From a virus: DNA of 20,854 nucleotides. Both the position numbers and the translations under genes were made by a program. Location of the stretch: IMG/VR virus record IMGVR_UViG_3300017783_000268, positions 1-20,854 of that record. One strand, given 5' to 3'. A model generated the notes under the pieces. That model saw only the letters and a list, made by a program, of their open reading frames with translations. It made no database searches and was not told where the DNA came from. This document shows positions 4,073 through 20,854 of the stretch, piece after piece; the stretch's first letter is position 1; each line of letters opens with the position of its first letter.

Positions 4073-4265
4073 ATGGGCAACAGAAGAATGGGTAGCATCT
4101 AAGGAAGATGATGCCAAGAGTGTAGAGCGTATACTTATTAGACTTAGGCGTGTAGCTAACCTGATAAAGACGGATGCTATATGTAGGTCAAGACCTAATG
4201 TGAGAGACAGGGCATCTGAAATGGAGTCACTGATATCTTTGTTGGAGAAGAAGCTAGATGAATAG
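4065..4265 (+). CDS. small helical protein (66 aa)
   Basis: ATG 4065 has GGAGGAG about eight bases upstream. The 66-residue product is almost entirely charged helix, rich in Arg, Lys and Glu, with one internal Cys, and ends in a coiled-coil-like S-L-L-E-K-K-L-D-E. Its 3' end overlaps the start of the recombinase gene by eight bases, so the two are probably translated together; it could be a small partner of the recombinase, but nothing in the sequence proves that. The family is not recognised. Confidence 0.65.
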   Translation: MAKWATEEWVASKEDDAKSVERILIRLRRVANLIKTDAICRSRPNVRDRASEMESLISLLEKKLDE

Positions 4266-5379
4266 ATTACCTAGATATGTACAAGCTATAAAAAAGTCTG
4301 GTAGACCCACTGAATACAGATTTAACCCTCCTCAAACTTTAGTAGACGAGGGGGTAGTAAAACGTGAGATGTATGGCAGTGATGTTAGTCAGGTTAAGCG
4401 TATAGCTAAACACAACAATGATTTAATTGATCAGTATAGAGAAGAGAAAGCTAAAGTTTTAAATATAACAAAACATAGCAAAGTCAGTGATCTAGTCAGG
4501 TTATACTACGAATCTAACGATTTTGACATGCTACGTGACACAACCAAGGCTGATTATAGGTATTTATTGACTATACTATGTAATTCTATGGGTAATAGGA
4601 AGTATTCTGACATTACAAGTAAGGTAGCGAAGGCTGCATATGAGGAATGGGTCAAAAGAGGTGTAAGTTTTGCTAATCATATAGCTACTTGCTCATCTAG
4701 GGTATTTAACTATGCCATAGAGATGGAATATATCATATTTAATCCATTTACAAACATAAAACGTAAGCCTTTAGCTAAACGTAAGGTTGTATGGCAACAT
4801 GAAGATGTGTTAAGGTTTCTTGATGAGGCGTATTCTGACTTTAGTACTCGTAACATTGGTCTTATTGTGCAAATGGCTTACGAATGGTGTCAAAGACTAG
4901 GTGATATGCGTACATTACGTTGGGAGGACATAGATTTTGATAGTAAAATGCTTACTTTAGAACAGAGCAAGCGTAGAGCAGAGGTATTTTTACCTATATC
5001 AGAGGACTTGATGGCAATGTTACGTGATCAGCATGATGACTTTGGCTTTCAACAGTATGTAGCACCTCATATACTACCCACTGAGGGGGTGTATCATCCT
5101 TATGCGATGCAAAGGCTTTCAAAAAACGGAAGGGGTGTCATGCGTAAGGCAGGGCTGTCTGAGAAGCTACGATTAATGGACTTACGAAGGACAGGGGTTG
5201 TACAAATGGTAGAAAAGAAAGTTCCATTGCCTAATATTATGTCTGTTACTGGTCACGCAAATGTTGCATCTGTGAAACCCTATTTAAAAAATACGTACAC
5301 GGCAGCAAATGAAGCCTTGACACAAAGAAACGTCAGTGTACAATCGAACACTGTGAGTAACATTGAAAGTGATACATAA
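4258..5379 (+). CDS. int: tyrosine recombinase / phage integrase
   Basis: The 373-residue product has an N-terminal arm-binding-like region (1-70), a SAM-like core-binding domain (about 72-165) and a C-terminal catalytic domain. The catalytic residues can be placed: R213 in C-Q-R-L-G-D-M-R-T-L-R-W, K238 in Q-S-K-R-R-A, R310 in M-D-L-R-R-T-G, H333 in V-T-G-H-A-N and the nucleophile Y342 in K-P-Y-L-K. The usual His of the HxxR box is Met307 here. Known family members carry out site-specific integration and excision; for this phage that suggests temperate ability, but the enzyme could also resolve multimers. No excisionase was recognised and no attachment core was seen next to it. It overlaps the primase start by one base (TAATG). 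Confidence 0.92.
   Translation: MNRLPRYVQAIKKSGRPTEYRFNPPQTLVDEGVVKREMYGSDVSQVKRIAKHNNDLIDQYREEKAKVLNITKHSKVSDLVRLYYESNDFDMLRDTTKADYRYLLTILCNSMGNRKYSDITSKVAKAAYEEWVKRGVSFANHIATCSSRVFNYAIEMEYIIFNPFTNIKRKPLAKRKVVWQHEDVLRFLDEAYSDFSTRNIGLIVQMAYEWCQRLGDMRTLRWEDIDFDSKMLTLEQSKRRAEVFLPISEDLMAMLRDQHDDFGFQQYVAPHILPTEGVYHPYAMQRLSKNGRGVMRKAGLSEKLRLMDLRRTGVVQMVEKKVPLPNIMSVTGHANVASVKPYLKNTYTAANEALTQRNVSVQSNTVSNIESDT
5317..5344 (+). promoter_or_regulatory. candidate sigma70-type promoter before the primase
   Basis: TTGACA (5317-5322), a 16-base spacer and TACAAT (5339-5344, five of six -10 matches) lie in the last codons of the recombinase gene. Initiation near 5351 would give a short leader to the primase start at 5379. 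It would let replication genes be expressed apart from the recombinase. This is a consensus match only. Confidence 0.4.
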
Positions 5380-6146: not shown

Positions 6147-7369
6147 TGGAACTAAGTTTAATAAGAAGTTTAATGGATAAAGAGTTCTACGAAGAACATC
6201 GTGGAGCTAGATGTCCTAACAGATTATTCAGTAAGGATGTACGTAAGATAAAAGAAGCCATTGATGCAGCAATGGATAGATATGAGCGGAGTGTCACGCC
6301 TGCTGAGATAGAATCACTATTTATGTCAAACAATCCGACAATGACTACGGCACAGAAGCAGGCTTATAGTGCATTGTTTACACAGATAACGAGTAAGCCA
6401 CCATTAGGTAATGACGTGGCTCAAGAGGTATTGTCTAAACTATTTCAACAGGTAGTTGGTGAGGACATAGCTAACTTAGGCTTTGACTATGTGAATGGTG
6501 ACAAGACGAGCCTTGAACCACTGCGTGTATTACTAGAACAGTATGGTGATGACTTTACACCTGACTTAAAAGTACAGTGGGATGACATTGACGTTGAGAC
6601 TTTACTATCTAAGAATGATCTCGAAGCACGTTGGACATTCAACATACCTACCCTTACACGTAAGCTAGAGGGCGTAAACGATGGACACTTGATTGAGATA
6701 GGTGCTAGACCTAACACAGGTAAGACATCCTTTCACGCATCACTGGTTGCATCACCCAATGGGTTTGCACATCAGGGTGCTAAGTGCATCATACTCTGTA
6801 ACGAAGAAGGTTCTCATCGTGTTGGTGCTAGGTATTTGACTGCCGCTACAGGTATGACCATGCAGGAAATCAAGAGAGATCCAGCCAAGGCTAGAGATAT
6901 ATATGCCTCAGTCAAAGAGAACATAAAAATATATGATGCAAGTAATCGTGACATGGCATGGGTTGAGAGTGTGTGCAAGTCATACAAGCCTGACATCGTT
7001 ATATTAGATATGGGTGATAAGTTTGCTAGGACAGGAGGCTTTGCTAGAACTGACGAAGCACTCAAGGCTAATGCCATACACGCTAGGCAAATAGCTAAAC
7101 AACATAGCTGTGCTATATTCTATATGTCACAGTTGTCTGCTGATGCAGAGAATAAGGTGGTACTTAATCAGGCAATGATGGAAGGCTCACGTACAGGTAA
7201 GGCTGCTGAAGCTGACCTAATGATACTGATAGCTAAGAATCCACCAGTAGAAGGGCAAGAGGAAGAAGATACAATGCGTCACCTGAACCTAGTTAAAAAT
7301 AAATTGTCAGGTTGGCATGGTATTATCCATTGCGAATTAGAGTATAGAACAGCGAGGTATGTAGTATGA
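6146..7369 (+). CDS. replicative DNA helicase (DnaB / T7 gp4-like)
   Basis: The 407-residue product has a helical N-terminal domain (about 1-135) and a RecA-like motor. Walker A is G-A-R-P-N-T-G-K-T-S (186-195); a catalytic-Glu region follows at C-N-E-E-G-S (218-223); Walker B is I-V-I-L-D-M-G-D with D288; a further conserved motif is M-S-Q-L-S (327-331), and G-S-R-T-G-K-A-A-E-A-D (347-357) plus K-N-K-L-S-G (385-390) match the C-terminal motifs of DnaB-family enzymes. It should unwind duplex DNA ahead of the polymerase as a hexamer, driven by nucleotide hydrolysis. It is coupled to the primase upstream and overlaps the next gene by four bases (ATGA). Confidence 0.92.
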   Translation: MELSLIRSLMDKEFYEEHRGARCPNRLFSKDVRKIKEAIDAAMDRYERSVTPAEIESLFMSNNPTMTTAQKQAYSALFTQITSKPPLGNDVAQEVLSKLFQQVVGEDIANLGFDYVNGDKTSLEPLRVLLEQYGDDFTPDLKVQWDDIDVETLLSKNDLEARWTFNIPTLTRKLEGVNDGHLIEIGARPNTGKTSFHASLVASPNGFAHQGAKCIILCNEEGSHRVGARYLTAATGMTMQEIKRDPAKARDIYASVKENIKIYDASNRDMAWVESVCKSYKPDIVILDMGDKFARTGGFARTDEALKANAIHARQIAKQHSCAIFYMSQLSADAENKVVLNQAMMEGSRTGKAAEADLMILIAKNPPVEGQEEEDTMRHLNLVKNKLSGWHGIIHCELEYRTARYVV

Positions 7370-7863
7370 TTAGAAATTGTAGATTTTGTGATGTAGAATT
7401 GTCACAGGATAATTGGTGTATTGGAAATATAAAACAAAAACAATACAAATGTAAAACTTGTGACGGTATTGTAGGAAGACAAAATTATTTAAAGCGTAAG
7501 GCAAAACAATTATCATCTTATTCTGTCACAGCGTTTAATAGAGTAAAAGAGGGTTATGTTTATGCAATAACAAACTCAGCATGGCAAGGATGGATAAAGA
7601 TAGGTATGGCAGTTGATGCAGAGGATAGATTAAAAGGCTATCAAACATCTAGTCCTTTCAGAGATTATGAATTATTACATAAAAGTTTTTTTAAAAATAA
7701 ACGTAGGGCAGAAGCTAAAGCACATAAACTTGCAGGAGAAATTGCTGATGAAACAAGAGGGGAATGGTTTAATATTAGTAAAGATAAAGCAATTAATATA
7801 ATTAATAGTATTGACAATGTAGAAAAAACAGGTATACAAGATATAAAAGAGGTATTTATTTAA
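7366..7863 (+). CDS. GIY-YIG-type (T5orf172-like) nuclease or DNA-binding protein
   Basis: The protein has 165 residues. The N-terminus holds two CxxC pairs (C5/C8 and C29/C32) that probably form a zinc finger. From residue 63 a GIY-YIG fold can be followed: G-Y-V-Y-A-I-T as the GIY-like strand, W-I-K-I-G (76-80) as the YIG-like strand, R88 in D-R-L-K-G-Y as the likely catalytic Arg, E116 in the following helix, and G-E-W-F-N (132-136) at the end. This order matches the T5orf172 / Mug113 branch of the superfamily. Such genes are often mobile or homing-like; this one sits exactly between helicase and polymerase and has a more A/T-rich codon choice than both, which suggests later arrival. Its exact role is unknown. 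Confidence 0.8.
   Translation: MIRNCRFCDVELSQDNWCIGNIKQKQYKCKTCDGIVGRQNYLKRKAKQLSSYSVTAFNRVKEGYVYAITNSAWQGWIKIGMAVDAEDRLKGYQTSSPFRDYELLHKSFFKNKRRAEAKAHKLAGEIADETRGEWFNISKDKAINIINSIDNVEKTGIQDIKEVFI
7811..7838 (+). promoter_or_regulatory. candidate promoter before the DNA polymerase
   Basis: TTGACA (7811-7816), a 16-base spacer and TATACA (7833-7838, four of six matches) lie near the end of the GIY-YIG gene. Initiation near 7845 would leave a leader of about 20 bases before the polymerase ATG at 7865. The match is moderate and the region is AT-rich. Confidence 0.3.
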
Positions 7864-7864
7864 C

Positions 7865-9913
7865 ATGATTACAATACTAGATGTAGAAAACACTGTTGTA
7901 AAAAGAAATGGCAAGATGCATCTTGATCCATTCGAACCAGAGAATACACTTGTTATGGTGGGGATGCTAGATGGTACTGGACTTGAGCAAATTGTAACGT
8001 TTGACCACACAGAGCATCCCCCCACAAAAAATGGTAGAGAGATAGTACAGAAAATGCTTGATCGTACTACTCGTTTGGTTGCACACAATGCAGTACATGA
8101 TTTGATGTGGCTGTGGGAGTCAGGCTTTACCTATGATGGTAGAGTATTTGATACCATGCTAGGTGAGTATGTACTACAACGTGGGCAGAAAGAACCACTA
8201 TCTCTTGAAGCATGTGCAGAAAGACACCATCTACATACACAGAAGCAGGACACATTAAAAGAATACTTCAAGCAAGGACTGAATGTATCAGAGATACCAC
8301 ACGATGAGTTGTCTGAGTATCTATGTGCTGACTTACATGCGACACAGCAATTGTTCAGACATCAGGACAGACAGTATACCTATGGTGCAGGTAGATCTTT
8401 AGTAGATACAATACGACTAACAAACGACTTAGTTGTACACCTAGCTCGTATATACCAACGTGGTTTCAAGGTAGACATGGATGCACTTGAAGAGGTACGC
8501 AAAGAGTTTGAAGCAGAGAAGCAGGAGCTTACAGTACAGCTAGAGAAACAGGTACACAAAATTATGGGTGACAGACCCATTAATCTCAACAGTCCAGAGC
8601 AGTTGTCATGGATTATATACAGCCGTAAAGTAAATGATAAACCTACATGGTCGTATGCTTATGAGGAACGTGTTACAAATACGCAACACACTGACAACAT
8701 ACGAAGTCTGACTACAAAACTATACAAGCAGAAAGCAGAGAGATGTCAGGAGTGTAATGGGGCAGGACAGATACGTAAGATACGTAAGAATGGTACACCA
8801 CATAAGAATACAAACAAGTGTCCAACCTGTGCGGCTAGTGGCTTTCTGTACATAAATAGCAAGGAGATAGCAGGATTAAAGTTTAATGCACCTGATCCTA
8901 AGTGGGTCAGTGCCAATGGCTTTAGTACTAGTAAGGACAATCTTGTATACCTAGAAGGTGTAGCTAGATCTCGTGGTATGAAGGATGCAGAGTTGTTTCT
9001 ACAACGAGTACGTAGATTGTCAGCACTTGACACCTATCTATCTAGTTTTGTTGAGGGTATAGCTACTCATGTTAAACAGGATGGTAAGCTACATGTACGA
9101 TTGCTACAACACAGGACAGGTACAGGCAGACTATCTGGTGCTGATCCTAATATGCAGAACATGCCACGTGGTGGTACGTTTCCAGTTAAGAAAGTATTTG
9201 TATCTCGCTGGGATGGTGGACAGATTTGTGAGGCTGACTTCGCTCAGTTAGAGTTTCGTGTAGCTGCCTTTCTTAGTCAGGACAAGACTGCAATAGAAGA
9301 AGTAACAACAGGCTTTGATGTACACAGCTATACAGCTAAAGTTATTAGTGATGCAGGTCAAAGTATATCTCGCCAAGACGCCAAGGCACATACATTTGCT
9401 CCTCTCTACGGTGCGTCTGGGTTTGGTCGTACACCAGCAGAGGCATCCTACTATCAACAGTTTACATCTAAGTACTCAGGTATAGGTGCATGGCACAAGA
9501 GGCTAGCCAAGGAAGTAATTACTACAGGTAATGTGCGTACCCCATCAGGTCGTGAGTTTGCATTTCCTTTGGCTACACGTAGAGCCAATGGAAGTATCAC
9601 ATACTTTACTCAGGTAAAGAACTATCCTGTGCAATCATTTGCTACAGCAGACATCGTGCCTGTATCTCTTATCTACATAGACAAGATGTTACACGCTAAC
9701 AAATTACAATCATGTGTTGTCAATACCGTACACGATTCAATTGTGATTGACGTACACCCTAATGAGAAGGAGAAAGTATTACGGATCATCAATCGTACCA
9801 ATGAAGTACTGGTCGATATCATAAATAAGAAGTGGGATGTTGACTTTAATGTACCACTATTATTAGAAGCAAAAATAGGTAATAATTGGCTTGACACAAA
9901 AGACGTGGCATGA
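7865..9913 (+). CDS. family A DNA polymerase with 3'-5' exonuclease and a DnaJ-like zinc-finger insert
   Basis: The protein has 682 residues. The exonuclease domain has D6 and E8 (L-D-V-E), D79 (H-N-A-V-H-D) and D156 (Y-L-C-A-D). The polymerase domain has motif A with D458 (E-A-D-F-A-Q-L-E-F-R), motif B with K507, F511 and Y515 (A-K-A-H-T-F-A-P-L-Y-G) and motif C with H623 D624 (V-H-D-S). Phe511 matches E. coli Phe762. Between the conserved N-S-P-E-Q-L (242-247) and S-T-S-K-D (354-358) segments of the thumb lies an insert with C294, C297, C319 and C322: a CxxCxGxG repeat and a CxxCxxSG repeat, like half of a DnaJ cysteine-rich domain. This combination is the hallmark described for marine phage HMO-2011. 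It is the replicative polymerase. The insert's role is unknown; it might bind DNA or a host processivity factor. Confidence 0.97.
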   Translation: MITILDVENTVVKRNGKMHLDPFEPENTLVMVGMLDGTGLEQIVTFDHTEHPPTKNGREIVQKMLDRTTRLVAHNAVHDLMWLWESGFTYDGRVFDTMLGEYVLQRGQKEPLSLEACAERHHLHTQKQDTLKEYFKQGLNVSEIPHDELSEYLCADLHATQQLFRHQDRQYTYGAGRSLVDTIRLTNDLVVHLARIYQRGFKVDMDALEEVRKEFEAEKQELTVQLEKQVHKIMGDRPINLNSPEQLSWIIYSRKVNDKPTWSYAYEERVTNTQHTDNIRSLTTKLYKQKAERCQECNGAGQIRKIRKNGTPHKNTNKCPTCAASGFLYINSKEIAGLKFNAPDPKWVSANGFSTSKDNLVYLEGVARSRGMKDAELFLQRVRRLSALDTYLSSFVEGIATHVKQDGKLHVRLLQHRTGTGRLSGADPNMQNMPRGGTFPVKKVFVSRWDGGQICEADFAQLEFRVAAFLSQDKTAIEEVTTGFDVHSYTAKVISDAGQSISRQDAKAHTFAPLYGASGFGRTPAEASYYQQFTSKYSGIGAWHKRLAKEVITTGNVRTPSGREFAFPLATRRANGSITYFTQVKNYPVQSFATADIVPVSLIYIDKMLHANKLQSCVVNTVHDSIVIDVHPNEKEKVLRIINRTNEVLVDIINKKWDVDFNVPLLLEAKIGNNWLDTKDVA

Positions 9914-9944: not shown

Positions 9945-10838
9945 ATGAATCAAATAACAAATTTAGATACAAGTAACTACGAAGCTATGGCAAAAGCAAT
10001 GGGCATGAGTTCATTGGCAGTGCCAACAAAAGAGAAGACTAACTCTCTTGCAAGACTACGCATACATCACACACCTTTAATGGGTCAGGAAGAGATCAAA
10101 GGTAAAATGACTAACGTTGAGGTAGTCAGTGGTGGTACATACAAACTAGAGATACCAGAGGGTGAGACATATTACGCTGAGAGTGTAGCTATTCGCCCAT
10201 TCCTACAGAGGTTTATGTACAAGCGTTTCATTAAAGGTACTGACAGTACACCTAACAGGTATGTCAAGACTATTATGGCAGACAATCTCAACATGGATCT
10301 GAAGGATAACGATGGACAGTTTAACTGTGGTAAACCTGCAGGGTACATCGAAGACTTCAAGTCTCTACCTGAGAAGATGCAGGATCTAATTAGACAGATC
10401 AAACGTACTCGTGTACTATTTGGTACTGTTGACTTGGTTAATCCTGTTGATGCTAGTGGCAACTCAGTAGATGTGGAGTCCACTCCATTTATATGGGAGG
10501 TTGAAAACCGTGATGCATTCAAGACTATGGGTGATGTGTTCAATAAATTAAATAAAATGAAACGTCTACCTGTACAGCATTATGTCAAGGCAGGAACAGA
10601 GGAACGTAAGTTGCCAAATGGTAACTCATTCTATCTGCCTACTGCTGAGTTGGATCTATCTGAAACATTGGATATGGACAACGACACTCAGGAAAACTTA
10701 GCTAGTTTCTTAGCTTGGGTAGCTAACTATAATGAGTATATTATGGGGGCTTGGAATGAGAATATGCAGAAGCACCAGTCAGTAGATACAGATACTGTCA
10801 ATGATTTTATTGACATTGATACTGCTGAGTTAGTGTAA
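9945..10838 (+). CDS. conserved phage protein, candidate ssDNA-binding protein
   Basis: The 297-residue product starts at ATG 9945 after AGGAG. It has a beta-rich middle (residues about 45-90, including E-V-V-S-G-G-T-Y-K-L-E-I), basic and aromatic stretches (F-L-Q-R-F-M-Y-K-R-F), an F-N-C-G-K-P-A-G-Y segment, and a markedly acidic C-terminal tail rich in Asp (D-T-D-T-V-N-D-F-I-D-I-D). A beta-rich core with an acidic tail, located between polymerase and recombination nuclease, is what one expects of a phage single-stranded DNA-binding protein such as T7 gp2.5, but I see no diagnostic motif. The function is inference from position and composition. It overlaps the next gene by one base (TAATG). 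Confidence 0.8.
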   Translation: MNQITNLDTSNYEAMAKAMGMSSLAVPTKEKTNSLARLRIHHTPLMGQEEIKGKMTNVEVVSGGTYKLEIPEGETYYAESVAIRPFLQRFMYKRFIKGTDSTPNRYVKTIMADNLNMDLKDNDGQFNCGKPAGYIEDFKSLPEKMQDLIRQIKRTRVLFGTVDLVNPVDASGNSVDVESTPFIWEVENRDAFKTMGDVFNKLNKMKRLPVQHYVKAGTEERKLPNGNSFYLPTAELDLSETLDMDNDTQENLASFLAWVANYNEYIMGAWNENMQKHQSVDTDTVNDFIDIDTAELV

Positions 10839-15640: not shown

Positions 15641-18600
15641 TTATCTTTTAGGTTTTGTAATTCTATATGGTAAAAATATTTCACTATAAAATGTTTGAAG
15701 AAAATCTACTGCCTCTAAAGACATTACAGGTTTTTCTTTTGTTCCACTAATTAGTTCTCCATTATAAACTATATCTGCATCTTTTAATTTTCTTAAATCC
15801 TTTGTCATAGATGTTTTTAAATGTTCTTTAAATTTTTTACTTTTAAATACTTTCCATGCTTGATTTATTATTCTTTTTTCAGAGCCAGAAAGATTTTCAA
15901 ATCTAGTAGCAAAAGTATGTCTTTGATAGTCTACCCAATCTTGAATATAGTCTTCGTCAGATTCACTATTTGGTTTAGCCATTAAATCATAATTTAATAC
16001 TTTCTTTTTTACCACTGTTCTTATTTCAGACAATCTACTTTTTATATACTTTTCTTTTGCTTCATTTGTTTTAAAACTTAAATACGTTTTTTCGTCATTA
16101 ATTTCTTTAGTTAACTCCGTAGAAATTTCCATAGCCATAATTCTTTTAGCTATATTATTTAGATAGTCTCCCCCTTTAAGTTTTTTAGGCGTATAGTCTC
16201 TCCACTCTAATCTTAAACGATCAAACTCATTGCTTATTTCAGAGCCTATATCTTTAGGTGTAATTCCTGATAATTGTTTTATTACAGGATTTACTCTGTA
16301 TATCTTTCTAGGTTCTAAAGGGTTATTTAAGTCATCTCTTAATGGATGATCTTTTCCTCTGATATGATCTGCTAAATCAATTTTTTTACCGTCAATATCA
16401 AATCTTAAAGGTAAGGCTCTAGTAGCTGATAACATAAATATTTTCATAAGATCTACATCTGAATTATCTGGCAATGTTAAATAATCTTCTGCGGATGTAA
16501 ATGGAGTGTCTGTTGTAGCTGCTATGTCTTTTAGCATTCCTGCACCTACTATGGCTCTTCCAGGAATAGTTCCTAATAGTTTAGCTACCTCTCTAGCTAC
16601 ATCTTCATTGTTATCTCCTGCTCCTTGTGCTGCTTCTACTATGGCATCTACTAGATAAAGTCCAGAACCTCCTTTCCCTAGTTGCCCAAAAGCAGCTTCT
16701 AAAAGTTCTTTTGATTTAAAAGGTTGATCTTGAAGAGATCTTGCAAGATTATTGTAAGGATTAAAGTCTTTTTCTTCTCTACCTGTAGCAATGCCGTACA
16801 GATCGGATCTATAAATCATGTCTACAGCAAAAGCAAACATTGAATACGGCCCTAAAAAGGCTCTAAAATCTTCTTTTTTTCCACTGGTAGGATTGTAGAA
16901 GGTATAAGAATCTGTTGTCTCATCCCCATAAATTGTTCTTAATCCAAGAAAAGTACCCAAGGTCGCTAAACCTGTCATTTGTTTTCCTAAAGTTTCGCCA
17001 TCTATTGCAATAGCAGATTTTGTGCCTGTTCTTTTTCCTCCTTTAACACCTGGTTTATTTAATATTCCTCCAAAATTTATAGATCCCAAGACAGGCGCAT
17101 GAGTATACCAAAATCTAAGTTGATTTACTAAGTATCTAGGAAAAGGAGCAAATATAGCTCCTATTGGGTTTGTTCCTGCTTTTAAAAACCAATTTGCTAT
17201 CTGATTTGCCCCACCTTCAATCTCTTTAAACCTAGAAAACTGATAGGTATATTCAAATGCTTCTGTCATAGCTTCAGAAATATACTCACTTGGAACTTGA
17301 TTAAACTGACCCTCTCTCATAACTTTATCTATACCATCTAGTTCAGTAAATGTTCCATCTGCATTTTTTATTTTTATAGGTTTAATGTTAATAAGTTTAT
17401 TTAATTCTCTATAATATATGGCTCTTTTAAACATATTATCAGACAAAGTATTTAAAGTATTAGCGTATCTAGTTGCACCTAAAAGACCTTTTTCTGTACC
17501 TGTAACTTCTGCAATATCGCCTAATCCTCTTACAAGCTTAGATAATTCGTCGGATTGACCAAAAGCAGGATCTTGAAGTATTTTAAATAATGCTTGATTT
17601 TCAGGACTTGTTATACCAAATAAAAGATCTTTAAATAAAATTGAGTCTCTTGAATTTTTAACTTGAGCTTGGCCTCGCTTTACCATTAGGTCTGCATACT
17701 TAGCAATATCCTCTTCAGGTATTCCTTCCGCTCTTAACTGATTAATATTCCAAGGTCTTCCAAGTTTTCCTGCAAAATAATTTAATGTTCCCATATTAAA
17801 TTCATCTAAAGCGTATGTAAAATTACGCATGTAACCATTGTTAGTGTTTCTAACAGTGGTAGCTAACTGAATAGTCATCATACCTACAGAAGTTTTACTT
17901 AATACTTTTGCTCCATTCCAAATCATTCTTGTAACAGTAGGAGCTTCATCCATTAAACTTTCTCTAGCTTTTCTAGTTAAACTTGTTACGCCATTAGCTA
18001 ATAGTAAGTCATCTAAATGATTTAATGCTTCTACATTTCTTTTATATCTAAGAGTAGAACTTTTAGTTGCGTTTCCAAATGTTCCTAGTATCGTACCTGC
18101 ACGAGAAAGTTCTTCCGCAACCAATGGGCCAAGTTGACTCATTTGAATATTGTGTCTTCTTAGTATAGGACTAACAGTTCTTCCATCTATTAAACCTTTA
18201 CTTAGAGCATAACTTAATTTAGAACCAAATCTTTCTACACCTTCTCCAAATTCTCTATCTCCTATAGCAGCTAACTTTTCATCAATCTCATCTATCATTC
18301 TAGCACCTGCAGCAGATATATTATCTAACTCTTGTATTGCTATTGCATAAGGTCTTCCTTCTTTAAATGCATCTATTTTTTGAAGTTTACTTGGTACTTC
18401 TTGTAAAACTTTACCTTCAGTTAAAAGTTCAGGTATAGTATCTGAAAATGGCAACAATAATTTTTGTCTTATTTGTTTTGCATGTTTAGATGTTTTATCT
18501 GCATTACGTGATCCAGTAGTACCGTTAAATATTGGAACAGCATATTTACTGTGAGAATTTGATATTGCTTCTTCTAATACTTTTTTATTTCCCTGTAACA

Positions 18601-19291
18601 AAAGCTCTGATTTATTTCCGCTTATTATCTGTCTGCCAGTAACTGGCAAAGATAAAAGACCACCTGCACCTGCACTTAAACCTGTAGCTAAACTTACATT
18701 TTTCCAATTAATTTTTTCTTGATCTGTAGCTAACACTCTTGCCTGTTCTTGTAATCCAACGGTAGCACCTGCTCCTGCTGCCTCAACAACAGAAGATTGA
18801 ATTGCTGTTTTAGTCAATGCCTGACGAGCTAACGCATCTTTTAAAACTTTTCGTAAAGTTAATTGTACGCCTTTTTGTGCAACTAACGTTCCTGCTTTTG
18901 CTCCTCCTGCAGTAAATAAACTACCATATGTACTAGGCGAAGTAGCTATTCCACCTATGTAATCTCCTATCATATTTAAATCATACTCACTATCTACTTT
19001 ATCATAGGTACTCATTAATCTTCCAAATTGTTGTAATTCGTTAACATTGCCAGATTTTTTTGCTCTATACGCATAGTTTAAATCTTTTGCTGCAGTTACT
19101 TCGTTTACATTTTGAACACGAAAATGTTCTAAGTATGCATCATATAAATCTTCTGGATCATTTAAATCTTGATCAGAATAACCTTCACGCCCTTGTAAAA
19201 AAGATCTTGCATCAGATAAAAAATCTTGATCCTCTATAAGAGATTCTCTGTTTAAACTACTTTTATCATATAGATGATACATTGATGCCAT
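15641..19291 (-). CDS. large virion / internal ejection protein (1216 aa)
   Basis: ATG at 19291 (- strand) follows AAAGGAAA. The 1216-residue product has a polar, helical N-terminus, then a Gly/Ala-rich stretch with low charge at about 107-215, including several G-x-x-x-G and A-G-A-G-A runs, further hydrophobic segments in the middle (such as G-M-M-T-I-Q-L-A-T-T-V and N-P-I-G-A-I-F-A-P-F), and long charged helical regions toward the C-terminus. Length, composition and position match the large internal core proteins of short-tailed phages, which are ejected and help form a channel into the cell. I saw no lysozyme or transglycosylase motif. The specific assignment is inference. It is the last gene of the - strand structural block and ends close to the shared terminator. 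Confidence 0.8.
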   Translation of the reverse strand: MASMYHLYDKSSLNRESLIEDQDFLSDARSFLQGREGYSDQDLNDPEDLYDAYLEHFRVQNVNEVTAAKDLNYAYRAKKSGNVNELQQFGRLMSTYDKVDSEYDLNMIGDYIGGIATSPSTYGSLFTAGGAKAGTLVAQKGVQLTLRKVLKDALARQALTKTAIQSSVVEAAGAGATVGLQEQARVLATDQEKINWKNVSLATGLSAGAGGLLSLPVTGRQIISGNKSELLLQGNKKVLEEAISNSHSKYAVPIFNGTTGSRNADKTSKHAKQIRQKLLLPFSDTIPELLTEGKVLQEVPSKLQKIDAFKEGRPYAIAIQELDNISAAGARMIDEIDEKLAAIGDREFGEGVERFGSKLSYALSKGLIDGRTVSPILRRHNIQMSQLGPLVAEELSRAGTILGTFGNATKSSTLRYKRNVEALNHLDDLLLANGVTSLTRKARESLMDEAPTVTRMIWNGAKVLSKTSVGMMTIQLATTVRNTNNGYMRNFTYALDEFNMGTLNYFAGKLGRPWNINQLRAEGIPEEDIAKYADLMVKRGQAQVKNSRDSILFKDLLFGITSPENQALFKILQDPAFGQSDELSKLVRGLGDIAEVTGTEKGLLGATRYANTLNTLSDNMFKRAIYYRELNKLINIKPIKIKNADGTFTELDGIDKVMREGQFNQVPSEYISEAMTEAFEYTYQFSRFKEIEGGANQIANWFLKAGTNPIGAIFAPFPRYLVNQLRFWYTHAPVLGSINFGGILNKPGVKGGKRTGTKSAIAIDGETLGKQMTGLATLGTFLGLRTIYGDETTDSYTFYNPTSGKKEDFRAFLGPYSMFAFAVDMIYRSDLYGIATGREEKDFNPYNNLARSLQDQPFKSKELLEAAFGQLGKGGSGLYLVDAIVEAAQGAGDNNEDVAREVAKLLGTIPGRAIVGAGMLKDIAATTDTPFTSAEDYLTLPDNSDVDLMKIFMLSATRALPLRFDIDGKKIDLADHIRGKDHPLRDDLNNPLEPRKIYRVNPVIKQLSGITPKDIGSEISNEFDRLRLEWRDYTPKKLKGGDYLNNIAKRIMAMEISTELTKEINDEKTYLSFKTNEAKEKYIKSRLSEIRTVVKKKVLNYDLMAKPNSESDEDYIQDWVDYQRHTFATRFENLSGSEKRIINQAWKVFKSKKFKEHLKTSMTKDLRKLKDADIVYNGELISGTKEKPVMSLEAVDFLQTFYSEIFLPYRITKPKR

Positions 19292-19312: not shown

Positions 19313-20830
19313 CTATTTAAAAGCAAATGGATAGATTGCTTTAAATTGATCTGCTCTTATAGGATCACCGTTATACAAATAAACTTTACCATTTAATATA
19401 CTCTTATGTATGTCTTTTATAACATTAATTTTTTCTGCTCTGCTTTTTCCTCCTGCTATATTAATTATAGTTTGCAAGCCTTTATACGTTGTTACATCTT
19501 TTAAGTCTGTAATTTCTCTTTCTTTATCTGTATCATCTGTTCCATCTAATGAAGAAGGGTCAAGTCCTAATTCAGTTTTTTTCTTTTTAAGACTTGGATC
19601 AGTAGATGTGTCAGATACATCATATTTTGGGTCTTTAAGTTTCTCATAAAAGGATTCAAAAAACTGTTCTGAAGTAGGGTATACTTCTTGAATTTTTCTA
19701 ACTTTAAAGTCTACTACTGTAGGTGCAGTAGAATCATTTCCATAATCAATTACTACGTCAGTTATCAGTCCTTGTTGTAAATTTTCCATCATTACACTTC
19801 TTACGTCTGTTAATTTTGTAACGTCTATTTTTTTACCTACCCTATTTGTTGCAGTAGAAATTTTTTGTAACTCGTTACTCATGTGTCTAGCCATAGAAAG
19901 CACGATAGGTTTTTGATTAGCGTCACTAACTTCATACACTTTACCCCAATTTGCATCTACAACATATGTACCTTTAGTAAACATAGTAATTCCAATATCA
20001 CCTGTAAGTCTTTTTTCTATATTCAATCTTTGAGAATCTGTCATGTTATTTTGTTGGTTATCTACATTAAACAAATCATATTCTGCCCTGTGAGAATTAG
20101 AAATTTCTGTTAATATATTTAATGTTTCCTTTGCTTCTGGAGAGGACTTATCTTCATAATTGTTATATTTTTTTAGGTACAAGTTGCTTATAGTTTTAAG
20201 ATACTCTAATTTTTCTTTAGGGTCATTTGGTGCGTTTATTAGCCAAGTTTTTTCTCCACTAGAAGATACAGGAGCTAATTTGGGAATATTTACTGGTATA
20301 CTTATATCGTTATTAACTGCTGAAATTAACTCATTTGATCGTGCATTTACTTGATCAGAGTAATCTGGGTCAAAAAATCCAAGGATTCCTCTATTTTCAG
20401 TAACTTTGCTAGGAGCTAAAGGTGAATATTTAGGAGCTTCTCCTACAACAAATTGCGCTAGTTGATTTGCAGTAATATTTGCTTTAGGATCTCTATCTAT
20501 TTTAACTAGGTCAGAAGTAGATATAGCTCCTCCACTATTATCAGAAGTAGTTTTTAAGTCCTTTAAAAATTCTTCTGCACCATCTAATCCATATGTTTGT
20601 ACAGCATATTGAACTAAGTTCATGTCATTATTAACAATTCCTGCATAAGATCTAATTTTATTTTTTGTAGCTTTGAATTGCGTTGCGTGTTTACCACTTT
20701 CTTCAATTACTTTAGATGCACGTAATTTTGAAATTTCACTAATTCTTTTTTCTCTTTGGTCTATCTGTCTTCTTATACCTGTGTCAAGACCAGTTGCTAG
20801 ACCCCCTACTAAACCTTCTAAAAAACTCAT
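19313..20830 (-). CDS. probable virion / ejection-associated protein (505 aa)
   Basis: ATG at 20830 (- strand) has GAGGAG at good spacing. The N-terminus is a Gly-rich amphipathic segment (M-S-F-L-E-G-L-V-G-G-L-A-T-G-L) followed by a strongly charged helix likely to form a coiled coil (about 20-60). The rest is mixed and polar, with an acidic Asp/Ser/Thr-rich stretch near residues 400-435. The gene sits 21 bases upstream of the large 1216-residue protein in the same direction, as expected for two core or ejection proteins made together. It has no recognised family motif. The virion role is inferred from context and composition; it could also be a tail or assembly protein. Confidence 0.75.
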   Translation of the reverse strand: MSFLEGLVGGLATGLDTGIRRQIDQREKRISEISKLRASKVIEESGKHATQFKATKNKIRSYAGIVNNDMNLVQYAVQTYGLDGAEEFLKDLKTTSDNSGGAISTSDLVKIDRDPKANITANQLAQFVVGEAPKYSPLAPSKVTENRGILGFFDPDYSDQVNARSNELISAVNNDISIPVNIPKLAPVSSSGEKTWLINAPNDPKEKLEYLKTISNLYLKKYNNYEDKSSPEAKETLNILTEISNSHRAEYDLFNVDNQQNNMTDSQRLNIEKRLTGDIGITMFTKGTYVVDANWGKVYEVSDANQKPIVLSMARHMSNELQKISTATNRVGKKIDVTKLTDVRSVMMENLQQGLITDVVIDYGNDSTAPTVVDFKVRKIQEVYPTSEQFFESFYEKLKDPKYDVSDTSTDPSLKKKKTELGLDPSSLDGTDDTDKEREITDLKDVTTYKGLQTIINIAGGKSRAEKINVIKDIHKSILNGKVYLYNGDPIRADQFKAIYPFAFK

Positions 20831-20854
20831 ACTGATCTCCTCGCCATTAATCCT
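20827..20854 (-). CDS. C-terminal end of an upstream - strand gene (partial)
   Basis: On the - strand, an open frame enters from the right edge and reads G-L-M-A-R-R-S-V before a TGA at 20827-20829, overlapping the ATG of the 505-residue gene as ATGA. The short overlap and the ribosome binding site inside it are typical of adjacent phage genes, so a structural gene probably continues beyond the window. Only eight codons are visible, so nothing can be said about its function. Confidence 0.35.

Follow-up and report, generated by a model that had tools for sequence, protein, structure and literature searches.

Here we show that the family A DNA polymerase encoded by a virus record from IMG/VR (IMGVR_UViG_3300017783_000268) carries a putative zinc-knuckle module in the tip of its thumb, and that this insert in a replicative polymerase of the Pol I type is both real and a hallmark of HMO-2011-type phages. 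The window analysed is the whole record, a fragment of 20,854 nucleotides, in which the polymerase gene occupies positions 7865-9913 of the plus strand (682 residues; open reading frame list and Pfam, with E. coli Pol I, Bst and Klenow as the best solved-structure matches). A first-pass annotation made from the letters alone had proposed a DnaJ-like zinc finger in the thumb at 8627-8899, corresponding to residues 255-345 and thus near the insert modelled here (residues 253-343, 8621-8893, plus strand).

A Cys4 insert at the thumb tip

The translation of 7865-9913 places C294, C297, C319 and C322 in a CQEC-x21-CPTC arrangement within an insert of about 90 residues, exactly at the positions and in the motifs (CQECNGAG and CPTCAASG) that the first-pass annotation had given, and these are the sole C..C motifs of the window polymerase. 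The finger so defined, which resembles motifs II and III of DnaJ, spans residues 294-326 (8744-8842, plus strand; PF00684 match and conservation) and includes G299, G310 and G326, as well as a lysine/arginine-rich hairpin at residues 302-318 (8768-8818, plus strand; open reading frame translation and an alignment of 139 polymerases).

An AlphaFold2 model computed from 64 aligned sequences (the window polymerase and those of fetched loci) had a mean predicted local distance difference test score (pLDDT) of 92 and a predicted template modelling score of 0.85, with block pLDDT values of 84-95 over the insert and of 86-91 in the ten-residue blocks over the finger; its top solved-structure matches were Bst and E. 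coli Pol I. In this model the insert lies between thumb helices H1 (residues 244-252, within SPEQLSWII; 8594-8620, plus strand; also placed by Klenow alignment) and H2 (residues 357-369, after STSKD; 8933-8971, plus strand; also placed by alignment), which form its conserved N- and C-terminal-side flanks, a position equivalent to the thumb tip of Klenow. It comprises short helices at 259-265 and 272-282, followed by a two-strand stalk (287-293 and 327-335) capped by the finger. The flanking segments N-S-P-E-Q-L (from 240) and S-T-S-K-D (from 354) align with FNLSSTKQL (578) and STSEEVL (608) of E. coli Pol I, in which H1 and H2 are separated by about 15 residues, versus about 100 in the window polymerase. 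Model and alignment thus agree on a thumb-tip insertion in Pol A, and nothing in the prediction of the polymerase alone moves the finger away from the thumb. A search of the insert against PDB sequences gave no meaningful match (best E = 0.24), and a fold search of a viral library returned polymerases only, many of them without names.

The T7 gp5 thioredoxin-binding domain, tied to processivity in T7, is likewise a thumb insert of a phage family A polymerase. It differs from the window insert in its point of entry, as had been anticipated from the sequence: the T7 domain, whose loop we take to comprise T7 residues 258-333, precedes H1 and ends just before FNPSS (T7 residue 334), whereas the window insert follows the equivalent helix and so enters one helix later. 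Alignment revealed no evident sequence likeness between the two.

HMO-type relatives were drawn from among the matches listed, near-duplicate contigs included, and were retrieved with peptides other than the finger (e.g. NTVHDS and DPNMQN), so that conservation of the four cysteines is not circular. Across two surveys all four were present in 157/157 sequences, spaced as CxxC-x21-CxxC in 152 and as CxxC-x33-CxxC in 5; not one member without the finger was found. Among the 139 full-length polymerases that could be aligned, C294, C297, C319, C322, G299 and G310 show no variation, G326 being conserved in 99%. The hairpin carries lysine or arginine at 305 and 307 in 100% of these sequences, at 308 and 318 in 86% each and at 315 in 78% (the window polymerase has N at 315), and the finger has an average net charge of +4.7 in proteins that are, as a whole, slightly negative on average. 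Over 36 independent close pairs, the finger has a ratio of nonsynonymous to synonymous substitution rates of 0.15, compared with 0.10 in the exonuclease and 0.08 in the palm: it is under purifying selection and slightly less constrained than the catalytic core. The second motif is frequently CxxCxxxG, as it is in the window polymerase, and its first glycine is present in just 56/142 sequences; the published description of two CXXCXGXG motifs needs a small correction at this point. In some CRP-3-like members (L190, L202, L215, L222, L228 and CRP-738 (L007)) the hairpin between the CxxC pairs is 12 residues longer and even more basic, e.g. QKYKQKTRQKNGKKYRVQGEPYKN.

The remainder of the polymerase is conventional in outline. 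The 3'-5' exonuclease domain (residues 1-175, 7865-8389, plus strand) matches PF01612 with E=1.3e-4 and 22.3 bits, narrowly missing the cut-off of 23.6, and the palm and fingers (residues 405-682, 9077-9913, plus strand) match PF00476 with E=1.3e-54. Neither the exonuclease residues D6, E8, N75, D79, Y152 and D156 nor the palm and fingers residues D458, R503, K507, F511, H623 and D624 vary in the 139-sequence alignment.

Relation to DnaJ and to other phage polymerases

Residues 289-327 match the Pfam family DnaJ_CXXCXGXG (PF00684) with E = 8.2e-5 and 23.2 bits, without reaching the gathering score of 32.7, and the finger covers positions 13-52 of the 65 in the profile. In a control with E. coli DnaJ, fragments spanning motifs I-II, II-III and III-IV fell on the same profile at positions 1-27, 16-52 and 39-65, respectively. 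Because its profile positions agree best with those of the II-III fragment, the finger is assigned to motifs II-III, which form the second zinc site of DnaJ; a single-sequence alignment to E. coli DnaJ had pointed to motifs I-II and was overruled by the profile positions.

The likeness to the DnaJ/Hsp40 cysteine-rich domain lies in the shared CxxCxGxG pattern, with CxxC pairs 21 residues apart in the finger and 18 in DnaJ. The differences are considerable: two motifs of this type rather than four, one predicted zinc site rather than two, a lysine-rich hairpin, and a setting inside a polymerase in which Pfam detected neither a J-domain (PF00226) nor a DnaJ C-terminal domain, although the same library detects PF00226 in E. 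coli DnaJ. Membership of the DnaJ family, or a role as a chaperone module, was rejected since there is no J-domain. The tripeptide HPD, present in 76/139 polymerases, was considered as a J-domain sign and likewise set aside, the window polymerase having neither HPD nor a detectable J-domain; it is read as part of a conserved V-H-P-D/N after motif C. Judged by its sequence, the finger shares a pattern with DnaJ without being one.

Previous work has described the polymerase of HMO-2011-type phages as atypical, in that it includes a partial DnaJ central domain with two CXXCXGXG motifs (PMC6918029; PMC9038755). This feature has been used to define the group, with 2433 such polymerases identified (PMC9038755), and the domain was described as lying between the exonuclease and polymerase domains, with the thumb unmentioned (PMC9038755, PMC6918029). 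PF00684 is already annotated in the GenBank record of HMO-2011. The window polymerase combines a family A polymerase and an exonuclease with two CxxC pairs and falls within the HMO clade; it is 75% identical to that of CRP-345, 73% to CRP-1 and 65.5% to HMO-2011, and does not differ in any essential respect from the HMO-2011-type polymerases (Puniceispirillum phage HMO-2011, CRP-1/2/3, HTVC033P). It is a new member of the HMO-2011 group, and the core finding is already published; the first-pass annotation, which pointed to the partial DnaJ central domain reported for the HMO-2011 polymerase, was right in this. The word "thumb" together with HMO-2011 was not found in the literature searched, which did not include the original HMO-2011 paper. 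To the published account we add the universality of the cysteines, the assignment to motifs II-III, the invariantly basic hairpin, the other lineages with thumb inserts, and a nearest relative that has no finger. Contigs with HMO-type polymerases (L101-L107) were also seen in metagenome-assembled genomes (MAGs) labelled Flavobacteriales, Neomarinimicrobiota, Euryarchaeota, Maricaulis and Rhodobiaceae; the same contigs recur in two MAGs, which makes mis-binning of phage DNA the probable explanation.

In a tree of 65 polymerases, built with a quick method, the HMO group forms one clade (20 rows including the window; support 91), and its nearest relative, on a long branch, is the polymerase of Stenotrophomonas phage StenR_269, which, instead of the finger, has a short loop resembling that of Pol I. 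At this same point an insert of another kind, almost never with a knuckle, is found in many other phage Pol A proteins. These inserts, which we term FGG-type (ICP2, Alteromonas R8W, KBC54, Acinetobacter podoviruses), share with the HMO insert the insertion point, a lysine-rich conserved core (e.g. KSGKNKG..K.K) and predicted beta strands, long ones in the case of the one insert that was modelled, but nearly all are without a cysteine knuckle. MAFFT pairs their hairpin glycine with the HMO insert; homology is not claimed.

Cysteine knuckles occur in the thumb of two further lineages. Myoviridae sp. ctsHD2 has a highly divergent Pol A (L245:2179-4368, from a freshwater spring) with a DnaJ-like Cys4 finger, CPECDGGG...CKPCQGTG, shortly before ISTSRDSL, and no close relatives of this polymerase were found in IMG/VR viral contigs or other phage records. 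A few FGG-type polymerases (L173, L254 and L255) have a knuckle, CPxC-x11-CxHC-CDGADANW, in the thumb insert, while their close relatives have none. The knuckles of L173 and of L254/L255 are probably of single origin, because they are nearly alike, and the tree requires separate changes for those of L245 and of L173/L254/L255. The earlier suggestion that the insert is specific to this phage type therefore stands in so far as all HMO-type polymerases have it and StenR_269 does not, and fails in so far as Cys4 knuckles recur in the thumbs of these two other lineages.

Possible roles of the finger

We consider it a little better than an even bet that a zinc-stiffened lysine hairpin grips the product duplex and so raises processivity. 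The four cysteines would hold one Zn2+ and make the stalk rigid; the stiffened stalk would bring the lysine hairpin to face the backbone of the new duplex as it exits past the thumb; and the extended grip on DNA would increase processivity, and possibly strand displacement, with no separate clamp. On this account the HMO finger would offer another solution beside the thioredoxin-binding loops of T7 and the thumb insertions, rich in lysine, of the plant organellar Pol I enzymes. We favour the DNA grip because of the thumb-tip position, the universal cysteines, the basic hairpin, the purifying selection and the lysine-rich inserts found elsewhere, together with two precedents. The first is a thumb deletion in E. 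coli Pol I, reportedly with limits at Klenow 590-613. This truncated thumb lowered processivity (Minnick 1996, cited in PMC10061031). The second is provided by the plant organellar polymerases, whose insertions 1 and 2 are also Pol I-type thumb insertions, insertion 1 being lysine-rich; they are thought to act on primer-template and to touch double-stranded DNA (PMC7699545). The plant insertions differ in that no zinc finger has been described in them and other functions have been measured, and homology with the HMO insert is not claimed.

Several points weigh against such a grip. The AlphaFold2 model contains neither metal nor DNA; we infer the zinc, the orientation of the finger and the effect on processivity alike; the basic residues of the hairpin could equally well face a protein partner; and the pre-finger segment (253-293) is the most variable among the polymerase regions compared. 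A broader form of the proposal is tentative, and we rather doubt it: that the H1-H2 thumb tip is a hot spot for repeated, unrelated lysine-rich or zinc-knuckle modules (the HMO finger, those of L245 and L173/L254, and FGG-type hairpins), each serving as a clamp-free processivity or SSB-coupling device (SSB, single-stranded DNA-binding protein), the HMO finger's partner being the acidic tail on the product of the adjacent gene.

The main rival to the DNA grip is protein docking, in which the basic finger would bind a phage protein, most plausibly that acidic-tailed neighbour acting as an SSB-like partner, as in T7, where gp2.5 binds the thioredoxin-binding domain. The gene directly after the polymerase (9945-10838, plus strand; open reading frame and locus comparison) encodes 297 residues ending in an acidic tail. 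At the 101 HMO-type loci examined, the protein in this position has 276-316 residues, is detectably similar to that of the window in 99, and always has an acidic C-terminal tail (101/101; mean net charge -8.4 in the last 25 residues, versus about -0.2 per 25 elsewhere). Thumb docking also has precedent: the SSB of T7 attaches to the polymerase at the latter's thumb insert (PMC7699545), and a mobile-element PolA has been modelled to contact its SSB via the thumb tip (PMC10061031). Against this, the neighbour has no family or structure match, SSB families included, in Pfam, PHROGs or a PDB profile search, and its identity as an SSB is a guess from tail and position; it is a candidate partner of the insert, and we regard docking as unlikely overall.

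Lower still we rank an aid to lesion bypass, strand displacement or repair, comparable to the lysines of plant insertion 1 (translesion synthesis, lyase activity, microhomology joining). The plant family A insertion is lysine-rich and sits in the same general location (PMC7699545), and the hairpin has invariant basic positions; yet zinc or Cys4 has not been described in the plant insertions, no sequence relation to them is established, and the exonuclease residues of the window polymerase are intact. We give an equally small chance to a host-factor site that recruits DnaK as a fragment of DnaJ, or binds thioredoxin or a sliding clamp. The match to the second zinc site of DnaJ fits such a site, as does lambda replication, which uses DnaJ in the account cited in PMC9038755. 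Recruitment of DnaK or thioredoxin is nonetheless less likely, given that the J-domain and C-terminal domain were not detected, only two of the four motifs are present, the hairpin is unlike that of DnaJ (QVQMRQGFFAVQQT), and the insert is one helix removed from the thioredoxin loop of T7, with no evident likeness to it in sequence; moreover, the hosts of HMO-2011-type phages span SAR11, SAR116 and Roseobacter, which makes a single host-specific partner less likely. Finally, a purely structural knuckle stabilising an otherwise neutral insertion, at a site whose recurrent, apparently unrelated inserts indicate tolerance, is very improbable, as the basic hairpin residues and G310 lie outside the metal site and are conserved like many catalytic positions.

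Genomic setting and significance

Elsewhere in the window, a T5orf172/MUG113 (GIY-YIG-like) gene with N-terminal CxxC motifs (7366-7863, plus strand) stands between the helicase and the polymerase. These two genes directly abut in HMO-2011, and in CRP-1 they are separated by thymidylate synthase and two small genes; the junction between the two has the look of a cargo site. A phage integrase gene (PHROG 1; 4258-5379, plus strand) is present and the phage may therefore have a temperate lifestyle, as do HMO-type subgroups I and III. Two long frames on the minus strand beside the replication module, one of 1216 residues (15641-19291; no Pfam or PHROG match) and one of at least 505 residues (19313-20854; chance-level match only in the PHROG scan), are possible virion proteins; no capsid or terminase gene was identified in the window.

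The thumb-tip position, the lysine-rich hairpin and the occurrence of such modules in two phage polymerase lineages that are unrelated are suggestive of a device that holds DNA or docks a partner. With the finger located at the thumb tip, next to the product duplex, the imprecise label of "DnaJ domain", with its overtone of chaperones, gives way to a specific hypothesis, a grip on DNA or the docking of an SSB, that can be tested through a clean set of mutants and comparisons, in what is an abundant group of marine phages.
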